Shown: in pieces, positions 10,424 to 15,379 of the stretch
Numbering within the stretch: position 1 is the first letter of the stretch
How the letters are laid out: every line of letters starts with the position of its first letter
DNA from: Halohasta litorea
GTDB lineage: Archaea; Halobacteriota; Halobacteria; Halobacteriales; Haloferacaceae
Assembly: GCF_024494645.1 (NCBI RefSeq)
Contig: NZ_JANHDJ010000004.1
Location: forward strand, 186,001-250,000
Length of the DNA: 64,000 nucleotides
Direction: 5' to 3'
Notes under the pieces: generated by a model
Told to the model about the DNA's origin: nothing
What the model saw: the letters and a program-made list of their open reading frames with translations, nothing else
Databases searched by the model: none
Position numbers and translations under genes: made by a program

Positions 10424-10659
10424 CAACGCGACATCGCTGTCGCTCACTGGTATAGAAGTGAGAACGCCATCAGCTACGGTCGGGCTCAGTGTGCGGTTTG
10501 ACGCGCATGGTTATCGAAACCCGACCGGCGGCATGACGTTCGCAACTGAACATCGGGTCGGTGGCGGCATATAGGTGTTGATCGACCTGTCTGTCGGTAG
10601 CGGGACACGATCCTTCCGGGATCCGTGCATACTTGCCTCCGGGTCGACTTCGTCCGGTG

Positions 10660-11760
10660 ATGAGCGTCGATCTTTTCACGCCGCTGTCGCTCCGGGAGAC
10701 GACTGTGCCGAACCGGGTGATGGTCTCGCCGATGTGCCAGTACTCCTGTGAAGGCCGTGACGGACGGGCCACCGACTGGCACGCCCAGCACCTCATGAGT
10801 CGGGCCGTCGGCGGGGCGGGCCTCGTGATGACCGAGGCGACCGCCGTCGACCCACAGGGCCGCATCTCGCCCGAAGACCTCGGGATCTGGGCCGACGACC
10901 ACGTCGAGCCACTCGCTGATATTACTGCATTTATAAAAGACCAGGGCAGCGTGCCGGGGATTCAGCTGGCTCATGCAGGCCGCAAAGCCTCGACCAGTCG
11001 GCCGTGGGAAGGCCACGACCCACTCCAACCCGCCGACGGTGGGTGGGACGTTCTCGGGCCGACCGACGAGCCGTATCCCTACGGCGACCAGGAGGCACCG
11101 GAGACGAGCCGAATGGACGATGAAGACCTAGAGGCAGTCACCGAGGCGTTCGTCGCGGCCGCCGAGCGAGCCGACAAAGCAGGCTTCGAGGTCGCCGAGG
11201 TCCATGCGGCCCACGGTTACCTGCTCCATGAGTTCCTCTCGCCGGTGACCAACACCCGCGACGACGAATACGGCGGTGATTTCAAGGGTCGGATTCGGTT
11301 CCCCCTGGAGGTCATCAGGGCCGTCCGCGAGGTGTGGCCCGAGGAGAAACCGCTCTTCGTCCGGATTTCGGCGACCGACTGGCTCGCCGACCGCGACTCC
11401 TGGACCGTCGAGCAGTCGATTCAGTTTGCCGACCGCGCCGCCGAGGCGGGCGTCGACTTCGTCGACGTGAGTGCGGGCGGGATTCATCCCGACCAGGAGC
11501 TCCCCTCAACCGGGCCGGGGTATCAGGTGCCCTACGCCCAGCGACTCAAAACCGAAACGGCCTCGGAGATCGCGGTCGGTGCTGTCGGCGGCATCACGGC
11601 TCCCGAGCAGGCCGACGCACTGATCCGAAACGAGCGGGCGGATATGGCGATTCTCGGCCGCGAACACCTCCGTGACCCCTACTTCACGCTCCACGCCGCC
11701 CAACAGCTGGGCCGTGAGGACGCGGTGTCGGTACCGCCACAGTACGAACGGGCGTTCTGA
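10660..11760 (+). CDS. NADH:flavin oxidoreductase, old yellow enzyme family (YqjM-like)
   Basis: This 366-residue protein is an FMN-dependent TIM barrel. It shows VSPMCQYSCEGRDGRATDWH near the start, GIQLAHAGRKAS, the AAHGYLLHEFLSPVTNTRDDEYGG signature with substrate-binding residues, and the C-terminal FMN-phosphate site GAVGGIT with ADMAILGRE. Such enzymes reduce activated C=C bonds with NAD(P)H. The Cys in PMCQYS is the redox-tuning Cys of the YqjM class. It lies 57 bp before RuBisCO on the same strand; a separate TATA-like element between them suggests independent transcription. Confidence 0.93.
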   Translation: MSVDLFTPLSLRETTVPNRVMVSPMCQYSCEGRDGRATDWHAQHLMSRAVGGAGLVMTEATAVDPQGRISPEDLGIWADDHVEPLADITAFIKDQGSVPGIQLAHAGRKASTSRPWEGHDPLQPADGGWDVLGPTDEPYPYGDQEAPETSRMDDEDLEAVTEAFVAAAERADKAGFEVAEVHAAHGYLLHEFLSPVTNTRDDEYGGDFKGRIRFPLEVIRAVREVWPEEKPLFVRISATDWLADRDSWTVEQSIQFADRAAEAGVDFVDVSAGGIHPDQELPSTGPGYQVPYAQRLKTETASEIAVGAVGGITAPEQADALIRNERADMAILGREHLRDPYFTLHAAQQLGREDAVSVPPQYERAF

Positions 11761-11817
11761 GCGGGGCGGCGGCAGCCGGTCGCAAACTTATCCGTCTCGG
11801 GTGTGAATAGCAATGAC

Positions 11818-13065
11818 ATGGCCGGAATTACCTACGAGGACTTCCTGGATACCAGCTACGAGCCCGCCGACTCGGAGCTCGTCTGTACGTTCAGCGTCGA
11901 TCCCGCCGCGGACATGGATATGGCCGCCGCGGCGAGCCGCGTGGCCTCCGAGAGCTCCAACGGGACGTGGGCGGAACTCCAGGTCGACGGCGAGATCACC
12001 GATCTGAGCGCAACGGCCTTCGAGATCGACGGGAGACGCGTGCAAGTCGCCTACCCCGACAGCCTCTTTGAGGCGGGCAATATGGCTCAGATCCTCTCGT
12101 GTATCGCGGGCAATATCATGGGGATGAAGGCCGTCGATCGGATTCGACTCCTAGACTGCGAGTGGCCCGAGGCGCTGACGGCCTCGTTTCCCGGCCCACG
12201 GTTCGGCTCGGCGGTCCGGGAGTCGATCTTCGGGGCGGGCGACCGTCCCATCACCGCGACGGTGCCGAAACCCAAGGTGGGCCTTTCGACCGACCAACAC
12301 GTCCAGGTCGGCTACGAGGCCTGGACCGGCGGTATCGACCTCCTGAAAGACGACGAGAACCTCACCGACCAACCCTTCAATCCCTTCAGAGATCGGCTGA
12401 TCGAGAGCTTCGGGGCCCGCGACCGCGCCGAAGCCGAGACCGGCGAAAAGAAATCCTACCTGATCAACGTCACTGCAGATACGAACACGATGTTGGAGCG
12501 CGTCGACATGGTCGCCGAGGAGGGCGGCGAGTACGTGATGGTCGACGTGATCACCTGCGGCTGGGCGGCCGTCCAGACGGTGCGGGATCAGTGCGAAAAG
12601 CACGATCTGGCGATCCATGCCCACCGGGCGATGCACGCGGCGTTCGATCGGGTACCGAACCACGGCGTCTCGATGCGCGTGCTGGCGCAGGTCGCCCGGC
12701 TCTGTGGCGTCGACCAGCTCCACACTGGGACGGCCGACCTCGGCAAGCTCGAAAACGAGGACTCTCGCGGGATCAACGACTGGCTCGCCAGCGATCTCCA
12801 CGGCCTGCGGGACGTGCTACCGGTCGCGTCTGGGGGATTGCATCCAGGACTCGTCCCCGAACTGGTCGACCGGCTCGGCACCAATATCTGCATTCAGGCC
12901 GGTGGCGGCATCCATGGCCACCCCGACGGGACCCACGCCGGGGCGAAGGCCCTGCGGCAGGCCGTCGACGCGACCGTTGCTGGGGTTGATCTCGACGAAT
13001 ACGCGGCGGAACACCCCGAACTCGAAACGGCCATCGGGAAATGGGGAACAGAGACTCCCCGATGA
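11818..13065 (+). CDS. rbcL: Ribulose-bisphosphate carboxylase, form III large subunit
   Basis: The enzyme carboxylates ribulose-1,5-bisphosphate to two 3-phosphoglycerates. The 415-residue length fits form III. Catalytic elements are complete: TVPKPKVGL with Lys151, the carbamylated Lys177 with Asp179 and Glu180 in GGIDLLKDDE, AHRAMH, His302 in LHTGT, loop-6 Lys310 in LGKLE, SGGLHPG, and the phosphate-binding GGGIHGHPDG. In archaea form III acts in AMP/nucleoside ribose salvage, not in autotrophy. It converges on a PfkB kinase and R15P isomerase operon that could supply its substrate. ATG 11818 follows AAACTTATCC (about 11783-11792) by roughly 28 nt, indicating a leaderless start. No small subunit is seen. 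Confidence 0.96.
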   Translation: MAGITYEDFLDTSYEPADSELVCTFSVDPAADMDMAAAASRVASESSNGTWAELQVDGEITDLSATAFEIDGRRVQVAYPDSLFEAGNMAQILSCIAGNIMGMKAVDRIRLLDCEWPEALTASFPGPRFGSAVRESIFGAGDRPITATVPKPKVGLSTDQHVQVGYEAWTGGIDLLKDDENLTDQPFNPFRDRLIESFGARDRAEAETGEKKSYLINVTADTNTMLERVDMVAEEGGEYVMVDVITCGWAAVQTVRDQCEKHDLAIHAHRAMHAAFDRVPNHGVSMRVLAQVARLCGVDQLHTGTADLGKLENEDSRGINDWLASDLHGLRDVLPVASGGLHPGLVPELVDRLGTNICIQAGGGIHGHPDGTHAGAKALRQAVDATVAGVDLDEYAAEHPELETAIGKWGTETPR

Positions 13066-13070
13066 CGTGT

Positions 13071-13094
13071 AATTATATTTGATTAAATATAATT
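13071..13094. terminator. Bidirectional AT-rich palindrome between convergent genes
   Basis: A perfect 10-bp inverted repeat (AATTATATTT, four-base GATT spacer, AAATATAATT) lies between the stop of rbcL and the stop of the convergent PfkB gene, which it overlaps by two bases. A further copy of AATTATATTT follows at 13091-13100. AT-rich and T-rich signals end transcription in archaea, so it may stop transcripts from both sides. Confidence 0.6.
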
Positions 13095-14004
13095 ATATTT
13101 CAGCGAGTCCCTCGACGGCCGCCCACGAGAGTTTAGTCCGGGCGGTCACCTTCTGGGCGGCCAGCGCGCCACAGGCGTTGCCAGCCGCCAGCGCGTCAGC
13201 GTACCGTTCGGCCTCGGCAGTCGCCCCCGATTCGTCGACCCAATCGCCATCGGCGAGCGTCGCCAGAAACCCGGCCGCAAAGGCGTCGCCAGCACCCGTG
13301 AGGTCGACCGGGTCGACGACAAACCCTTCGTGAGTCGTCTCGCCGTCGGGCGTGTAGACGGTCGCGCCGTCGCCGCCGTGTTTGACCACGACGGTCATCT
13401 CAGTGGGCTGGGTCGGCGACAGCACGCCGCTGTCGGCGACGAGATCGGCCTCCCGCTGATTTAGAAAGAGGAGGTCAGTCGACGCCAGCGCCTCGCTGTA
13501 CCCCCGGTCGGCCACCTGGCGTCCTGGATCGAAACTCACCGAGAGCCCCAGATCGCTCGCCAGCCGCGCCAAAAGCGAGGCCATCTCCGGCGATTGGCTC
13601 GTCAGGTGGAGGTGGTCGACGCCGCGGAACAGTTCGGCCGAGATATCCTCGCTGCAGAACGCCTCGTTGGCTCCCGCGTTGGAGAACACCATTACCTCGC
13701 CGGTGGCATCGACGACGAGATATTTCACCGAGGTCGTCCCCTCGGCGTCGATGAAGACGTGCCCGCAGTCGACGCCTACGCGGTCGAGTTCACGGAGGGC
13801 CAAGGCTCCCGTATCGTCGCCACCGACGCTGCCGTACAGCGATGCCGACTGGTCGAGCCCGACGAGTCCGGCGGCGACGTTGGCGGCCGAGCCGCCGCCC
13901 GACTGGATCAGCCGCTCGATTCGGACTTCGCCGTCGGGGTCAGGGAGGCTATCGACGTGCATCGTCACGTCCCAGTTGATGTGGCCCGCACAGAGGACGC
14001 TCAT
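13093..14004 (-). CDS. PfkB-family sugar kinase, probable ribose-1-phosphate kinase
   Basis: The 303-residue ribokinase-fold protein has the GGGSAANVAAGL substrate site near residues 36-47 and the ATP/anion-hole motif DLTGAGDAFAAGF with the catalytic Asp near the C-terminus. Its ATG overlaps the stop of the R15P isomerase gene by four bases (ATGA), so the two are translationally coupled. Haloarchaea are known to phosphorylate ribose-1-phosphate to ribose-1,5-bisphosphate with an ATP-dependent PfkB kinase in nucleoside degradation. The coupling to the isomerase makes that the best substrate guess, but other nucleosides or sugars remain possible. Confidence 0.85.
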   Translation of the reverse strand: MSVLCAGHINWDVTMHVDSLPDPDGEVRIERLIQSGGGSAANVAAGLVGLDQSASLYGSVGGDDTGALALRELDRVGVDCGHVFIDAEGTTSVKYLVVDATGEVMVFSNAGANEAFCSEDISAELFRGVDHLHLTSQSPEMASLLARLASDLGLSVSFDPGRQVADRGYSEALASTDLLFLNQREADLVADSGVLSPTQPTEMTVVVKHGGDGATVYTPDGETTHEGFVVDPVDLTGAGDAFAAGFLATLADGDWVDESGATAEAERYADALAAGNACGALAAQKVTARTKLSWAAVEGLAEI

Positions 14005-14972
14005 TCGGTTTCCCCCGTGGGCTCCTCCCAGGGCTCGCCGACGCTCTCGCCGAACAGTTCTCTCATTAGCGTCACGATGCTTTCGGGCGGGAACTGCCCG
14101 CGTTCGGTGATGATCGCATCCACGTAGCGCGGCGGTGTCACGTCGAAGGCGGGGTTTTCGACGGCGATGTCGCCGATCTCCGCCCGGGTTTCGCTGTCGA
14201 CCACCTCGCTTTCGTCCCGCATCTCGATTTCGACCGTGTGGCCGGTCAGCGTGTCGGGGTGGAGTTTGATCGTCTGGGCGGCGGCCATGATCGGCGTCCC
14301 GCGATCGCGGGCGTTGACCGCCAGCCCACTGGTTCCGATCTTGTTGATCAGGCTGCCGTCGGCGGCGATGCTGTCGGCACCGACCAGCACGTGATCGACC
14401 GCACCGAGATACCGGCGGGCCGCGCTGTCGACGATCAGCGTCACGTCGACGCCCAGATCGCGGAGTTCGCGGGCGGTGATGTGGCCCTGATTTCGCGGGC
14501 GGGTTTCCTTGACGACCGCCGAAATCCCTTTGCCCTGCTCGACGGCAGCCTCGATACAGGCCAGCGCATCCGTCGAGTGGCAGTGGGTCATCACCCGATC
14601 CCCGTCGCGGAGACGGTTGGCCCCGACCGCGCCGAGATCCGCCTGTGCCCGGTCGAGCCGGTCGACGAACTCGTCGGCCGCCCGGATAACCGAGGCCCGA
14701 AGCCCACCGACGGTTTCGCCGTCCATCCGCTGGAGCACATACCGGAGCGCGTTGGGGAGGCTGACCGCCGTTGGCCGCGTGGCCTGTAGCCGCCGCCCAG
14801 CCGCCCGGAGCGTCGACTCGAAGCCCGCGGGTGTGGCGGCGGTCGACTCGACGGCTTGGGCCCGGAGTGCGCTGGCGGCGGCTGCGGCGATCGGCGCCGC
14901 GCCCCGAACCTCCATCGAGGCGATCTCCGTGGCGGTCGCCTCGACTGTCGGATGGAGCTGTGGATCTGCCAT
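14001..14972 (-). CDS. Ribose-1,5-bisphosphate isomerase (eIF2B-like fold)
   Basis: The 323-residue protein belongs to the eIF2B alpha/beta/delta-related isomerases. The two residues used by the characterised Thermococcus enzyme appear in the right motifs: Cys131 in THCHSTD and Asp200 in LVGADSI, followed by NKIGT. It would turn ribose-1,5-bisphosphate into ribulose-1,5-bisphosphate, the RuBisCO substrate. ATG 14972 follows a CTTGTAT element by about 28 nt; an in-frame upstream codon at 15002 falls inside that promoter. First gene of a two-gene operon with the PfkB kinase. Confidence 0.92.
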   Translation of the reverse strand: MADPQLHPTVEATATEIASMEVRGAAPIAAAAASALRAQAVESTAATPAGFESTLRAAGRRLQATRPTAVSLPNALRYVLQRMDGETVGGLRASVIRAADEFVDRLDRAQADLGAVGANRLRDGDRVMTHCHSTDALACIEAAVEQGKGISAVVKETRPRNQGHITARELRDLGVDVTLIVDSAARRYLGAVDHVLVGADSIAADGSLINKIGTSGLAVNARDRGTPIMAAAQTIKLHPDTLTGHTVEIEMRDESEVVDSETRAEIGDIAVENPAFDVTPPRYVDAIITERGQFPPESIVTLMRELFGESVGEPWEEPTGETE

Positions 14973-15025: not shown

Positions 15026-15379
15026 TTACTCGCCGTAGTTAATCAGGAGTTCCCGGTCTGCATCGTACTCCAGGACGCTCTCGCGAGCCAGTCGTGGGAG
15101 CAGTCGCTCGGTCAGTACCGTCCGACAGATCGACCGATCGATTGCTTCGGGTTCGCGCTCGACGAGTACGTCGACGAGGTGGTCGACCGGGACGACGCCG
15201 TAGTCGGCGGTGAGAAACATTTCGACGATCCAGCGACGCCACTCGCGGCGTTGGTCGGCGGTCAGTCGCGGCGACCCGTTGTCGGTCCCATCACAGTCCG
15301 CATCGCCGTTCGGTGGGTCGTCGTGTGGGTCTTTTCCCGGCTCGGCGTCGGCCCGGTGTGCCCCATGGCGGAAGGTCAT
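15026..15379 (-). CDS. Probable winged-helix regulator (DUF7344-like)
   Basis: The 117-residue protein has a poorly conserved acidic N-terminus. Residues about 45-117 form a helical domain (WRRWIVEMFLTADYGVVPVDHLVDVLVE) ending with LPRLARESVLEYDADRELLINYG. That ending is typical of haloarchaeal ArsR-like winged helices, with the beta-wing at the end. It lies 53 bp upstream of the R15P isomerase gene on the same strand and 247 bp from the divergent PAS-GAF regulator. A role in regulating a neighbour is plausible but unproven. Confidence 0.7.
   Translation of the reverse strand: MTFRHGAHRADAEPGKDPHDDPPNGDADCDGTDNGSPRLTADQRREWRRWIVEMFLTADYGVVPVDHLVDVLVEREPEAIDRSICRTVLTERLLPRLARESVLEYDADRELLINYGE

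Follow-up and report, generated by a model that had tools for sequence, protein, structure and literature searches.

The locus described here lies in a 64,000-nt stretch of Halohasta litorea DNA (the window) and very probably encodes the core of the haloarchaeal carboxylating pentose bisphosphate pathway, that is, the enzymes that form and consume ribulose-1,5-bisphosphate (RuBP). All three enzymes, a form III RuBisCO, a ribose-1-phosphate (R1P) kinase and a ribose-1,5-bisphosphate (R15P) isomerase, gave equivalog-level HMM matches above cut-off, with active sites intact. We infer a route in which a nucleoside phosphorylase encoded elsewhere would free R1P from guanosine, the kinase would convert R1P and ATP into R15P, the isomerase would turn R15P into RuBP, and the RuBisCO would carboxylate RuBP, so that the path from guanosine would end in two molecules of 3-phosphoglycerate entering central metabolism. 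Substrates, carboxylation and flux would be those of characterised family members. The route and its distribution are already published, and the locus is the second variant of Sato et al. (PMC9700705). What is new is comparative detail on the exits from RuBP, on a TATA-like element and on the erosion of the module in the genus. Shown by the analysis are the family assignments, the intactness of the key residues, the gene set and its linkage. The features of the locus are:

10633..11760, + strand, old-yellow-enzyme-type flavin oxidoreductase (PF00724), left flank of the module in the genus
11784..11793, + strand, TATA-like element about 30 nt 5′ of the RuBisCO ATG, at an A+T peak common to haloarchaeal RuBisCO genes
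11818..13065, + strand, form III RuBisCO large subunit (TIGR03326; catalytic residues; archaeal structural relatives)
13093..14004, − strand, PfkB-family kinase of the R1P-kinase family, 303 aa (NF053626; PF00294; TGAGD)
14001..14972, − strand, R15P isomerase, 323 aa (TIGR00511; C131, D200; structure matches)
15026..15379, − strand, small ORF of 117 aa, 5′ of the isomerase, conserved in four genus members

The RuBisCO gene and its probable promoter

The RuBisCO ORF runs from the ATG at 11818 to the stop at 13065 (415 aa) and is intact, without signs of decay. A profile search with the type III RuBisCO model TIGR03326 gave 623 bits (cut-off 497), and the closest solved structures are archaeal RuBisCOs (2cwx, E=2e-130). 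The original prediction of a catalytically complete form III enzyme was confirmed, as K151, K177, D179, E180, H302 and K310 were all found at the positions that it had claimed. Further residues of the RuBP site and the N-domain were recognized (K153, E45, T50, W51, N99, H269, R270, S338 and G362-363). By analogy with the family, RuBP carboxylation is the exit step proposed for this protein. A literature search found no carboxylation data for any haloarchaeal form III RuBisCO, and in a survey of 250 enzymes those form III members that were soluble proved slow or inactive (PMC12663927).

The window sequence at the TATA-like position is AAACTTATCC. Across about 75 RuBisCO loci of named haloarchaea, A+T content reaches 71-84% at positions −31 to −27 from the ATG, between flanks of mostly 20-45% A+T and in DNA that is otherwise G+C-rich. 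In haloarchaeal leaderless transcripts, the TATA box is typically located about 27 nt 5′ of the first base. Because the element at about −30 is conserved and agrees with this spacing, the RuBisCO gene probably has its own promoter and a leaderless transcript starting at 11818. The distance of about 30 nt between the conserved element and the ATG also makes a longer start, at the GTG at 11803, unlikely. Co-transcription with the upstream flavin oxidoreductase across the 57-nt gap is less likely, since the element is kept across differing gene neighbours.

Erosion of the module within the genus

RuBisCO was present in one of the four genomes of the genus, that of the window. In G068, a single contig rated 99% complete, the locus (L088, G068:C1:158000-177000) carries the flavin oxidoreductase, kinase, isomerase, small ORF, a BAT/HTH_10 regulator and two MetE-like genes, in an order collinear with the window minus RuBisCO. 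Its kinase and isomerase have their full length, share 85-86% identity with those of the window and retain their catalytic motifs. Pairwise dN/dS between G000 and G068 was 0.16-0.19 for isomerase and kinase (0.04-0.30 for neighbours), which shows constraint on the two genes and is silent on whether that constraint outlasted the loss of RuBisCO. In G145, the small ORF directly follows the flavin oxidoreductase. None of the three module genes is left at this site, and the DNA matches to them found elsewhere in the genome do not exceed stretches of 50-60 bases; for both G145 and G146, the search for the R1P kinase and isomerase was made at the DNA level only. G146, a draft rated 83% complete, keeps a RuBisCO stump inside one contig, at the orthologous site (L117, G146:C136, reverse complement, 2768-2904). 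There, the TATA-like element, the ATG and about 29 codons (MVRIAYADFIDTSYEPRPSDLVCTFSLES) are followed by the small ORF, and the flavin oxidoreductase is also truncated.

The module is eroding in the genus: G068 lost RuBisCO only, G145 lost all three genes cleanly and G146 keeps a stump. The differing junctions in these sequences suggest that the losses were separate in the three species. Since the stump persists at the orthologous place, RuBisCO stood at this site in the ancestor shared with G146, and loss is therefore more plausible than recent gain. A late transfer of the gene into the genus is disfavoured, as the stump predates the divergence of G146; in the RuBisCO tree, the window sequence was placed without support. 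The flavin oxidoreductase is retained where the module is lost and is not part of the pathway. The 117-aa ORF, which is 46-55% identical in three genus mates and matched no Pfam or NCBIfam family, is probably outside the pathway because it too is retained where the module is lost. Just 5′ of the flavin oxidoreductase in G068 are a MOFRL/DUF4147 protein of glycerate-kinase type and a GntP permease (L088:4222-7079); the corresponding place in the window holds a PHO4-type transporter.

The RuBisCO step is dispensable, since three of the four species of the genus live without RuBisCO. It could be argued that the route mainly detoxifies or recycles R15P and RuBP as a housekeeping function, and that carbon flux through RuBisCO is small, hence its frequent loss or replacement. 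The absence of RuBisCO from the three other genus members, in three differing locus states, and the tendency of form III enzymes to be slow (PMC12663927) would fit this explanation, but an evolved Thermococcus kodakarensis strain needs RuBisCO for nucleoside-dependent growth (PMC12628685) and the window gene bears no trace of decay, and we consider it unlikely.

The genus is a natural experiment, in which near-identical loci occur with RuBisCO, minus RuBisCO only and minus the whole module, and which includes a species expected to make RuBP without a known enzyme to consume it. This species is G068, which should form RuBP to judge from its intact kinase and isomerase, and in whose genome neither RuBisCO nor RuBP phosphatase was found above cut-off. 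The isomerase also occurs without either exit above cut-off in G024 (L101), G079 and G140, and in the latter two the R1P kinase is below cut-off as well. Two species with the isomerase and neither exit were noted by Sato et al. (PMC9700705). It is possible, though doubtful, that G068, G024, G079 and G140 use a third, undescribed RuBP sink, in which case the exit would be a module that can be exchanged, and haloarchaea would have at least three solutions for it. For genomes of the G068 type, either an undescribed enzyme acts on RuBP, or the two enzymes that remain are vestiges in the process of being lost.

The kinase and isomerase operon and the rest of the pathway

The predicted convergence of RuBisCO on a coupled operon of a PfkB kinase and an R15P isomerase was borne out. 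Isomerase and kinase form an operon on the − strand (14972-13093) with an ATGA overlap at the kinase start, and 27 nt separate the stops of the convergent RuBisCO (+) and kinase (−) genes. The isomerase reached 468 bits with TIGR00511 (cut-off 314), contains both catalytic residues, C131 and D200, and is matched by the structures of the T. kodakarensis R15P isomerase (E=3e-88). R15P isomerase activity has been demonstrated for haloarchaea (PMC9700705).

The assignment of the PfkB protein as an R1P kinase, which had been drawn from gene order, is now supported by sequence family: the R1P-kinase model NF053626 gave 395 bits (cut-off 330), compared to 94 for ribokinase, the nearest rival, 66 for archaeal nucleoside kinase and 56 for KDG kinase. 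The protein belongs to Pfam PF00294 and carries the PfkB motifs GGGSAANVA and TGAGD (D240). For one member of its family, Hx-RbsK, ATP-dependent R1P kinase activity has been demonstrated (PMC9700705). PfkB enzymes are promiscuous, and that source also describes weak activity of Hx-RbsK on xylulose, 2′-deoxyguanosine and ribulose (PMC9700705); nevertheless, the distance between these scores and the translational coupling of the kinase to the R15P isomerase make it highly improbable that the window protein is a ribokinase or a nucleoside, fructose or KDG kinase instead of an R1P kinase.

The remaining steps of the route were sought in the window genome (rated 99.9% complete). Profile searches of this genome gave no match above cut-off for NMP phosphorylase (best 41 bits versus 535), RuBP 5-phosphatase (NF053830, best 59 versus 330) or Ru1P aldolase (NF053831, four matches, best 236 versus 300). 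Two genes of the PNP/uridine-phosphorylase family are present. One of them (C23:532671-533333) is 73% identical to the phosphorylase adjoining the R1P kinase in G067, a Halobacterium-type genome. The G067 protein is the equivalent of the guanosine phosphorylase described by Sato et al. (PMC9700705), and that of the window genome is, as judged by sequence, a guanosine-phosphorylase-type enzyme. The second gene lies directly 3′ of a cytidine-deaminase-like ORF.

The window genome also encodes a protein of about 450 aa with two tandem class II aldolase (FucA-like) domains (L090:8485-9828, − strand), and the same architecture is found in G068 (G068:C1:2583122-2584405). Both domains, scored singly, fall below the Ru1P-aldolase cut-off, and more FucA-like and sugar-kinase-like ORFs lie near the tandem protein.

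Exits from RuBP across Halobacteria

Counts were made in 145 Halobacteria genomes and rest on curated model cut-offs, uncorrected for relatedness. RuBisCO was above cut-off in 50 genomes, R15P isomerase in 94, R1P kinase in 117, NMP phosphorylase in 23 and RuBP phosphatase in 44. As exits, RuBisCO and RuBP phosphatase almost exclude each other: of the 94 genomes with the isomerase, 46 had only RuBisCO, 41 had only the phosphatase, 3 had both and 4 had neither (Fisher p = 2.5e-18, uncorrected for relatedness). By genus, RuBisCO was found in 28, phosphatase in 13 and both in 2. One of the two is g22, where no single sampled genome carries both exits, and the phosphatase-bearing members G025 and G107 hold RuBisCO fragments (L102:8762-9106 and L103:6022-6485, respectively) that are 88-90% identical to a Natrinema gari protein. 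We read these fragments as the result of RuBisCO decay after an exit switch. The last step of the pathway is readily lost or swapped.

The isomerase was present in 49 of the 50 RuBisCO-bearing genomes, which, together with the exclusion of RuBP phosphatase, fits a substrate derived from R15P and ties haloarchaeal RuBisCO to nucleoside-ribose salvage, not autotrophy. It is very improbable that RuBisCO instead acts with phosphoribulokinase (PRK) in a Calvin-like or reductive hexulose-phosphate route and adjoins the kinase and isomerase only incidentally: such a route with RuBisCO and PRK exists in methanogens, but the organisms named by Kono et al. in their PRK survey are, in the part of the paper drawn on here, methanogens and hyperthermophiles, with no haloarchaea among them (PMC5241800).

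A survey of neighbouring genes placed kinase and isomerase both within 8 kb downstream of RuBisCO in 19 of 80 named haloarchaeal loci, always convergent; the isomerase alone was within this distance in 35 of the 80. Because 19 loci share the convergent layout, the adjacency of the three genes is not due to chance.

Comparison with published variants

The view of the locus as an unusual mix of two known pathways did not hold. RuBisCO, R1P kinase and R15P isomerase occur together in 48 of the 145 genomes, 28 of them without NMP phosphorylase, and the combination 'Rubisco without NMP phosphorylase', with the same kinase, was published for 11 of 63 haloarchaea (PMC9700705), which rules out its novelty. 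In that paper, Sato et al. (2022) distinguish three haloarchaeal variants among 63 species, with Rubisco and NMP phosphorylase (14 species), with Rubisco and without NMP phosphorylase (11) and non-carboxylating (17), the ATP-R1P kinase being common to all. Within the genus Natrarchaeobius, two strains were described in 2025 that between them have the carboxylating and the non-carboxylating version (PMC12343721).

The window genome has the RuBisCO, R15P isomerase, R1P kinase and guanosine-type phosphorylase of variant (ii), and NMP phosphorylase is not above cut-off. As drawn in Fig. 5b of PMC9700705, this variant has the same set of nucleoside phosphorylase, ATP-R1P kinase, R15P isomerase and Rubisco genes and, like the window genome, no NMP phosphorylase and no RuBP phosphatase, so that gene content does not differ; the tight convergent layout of the three genes is not mentioned for it in the text considered. 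The non-carboxylating pathway of Halobacterium and Halorubrum (PMC9700705) shares its kinase and isomerase, in many cases encoded as an operon, with the window, whereas its exit consists of RuBP phosphatase and Ru1P aldolase instead of RuBisCO, neither of which is above cut-off in the window genome. The Thermococcales pathway (T. kodakarensis TK2290/TK0185/TK0352/TK2029) has R15P isomerase and form III RuBisCO in common with the window, but relies on NMP phosphorylase and an ADP-dependent R1P kinase, in contrast to the window genome, which has no NMP phosphorylase above cut-off and a kinase of the ATP-dependent halophile family.

Two further arrangements were seen among the surveyed genomes. 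G021, which belongs to another family, has NMP phosphorylase and RuBisCO genes on the same strand, 56 nt apart (G021:C14:11844-14568), and no R15P isomerase above cut-off (best match 204 bits). G020 and G046 carry NMP phosphorylase, R1P kinase, R15P isomerase and RuBP phosphatase without RuBisCO, a fourth combination that conflicts with the published claim that NMP phosphorylase occurs only with RuBisCO (PMC9700705).
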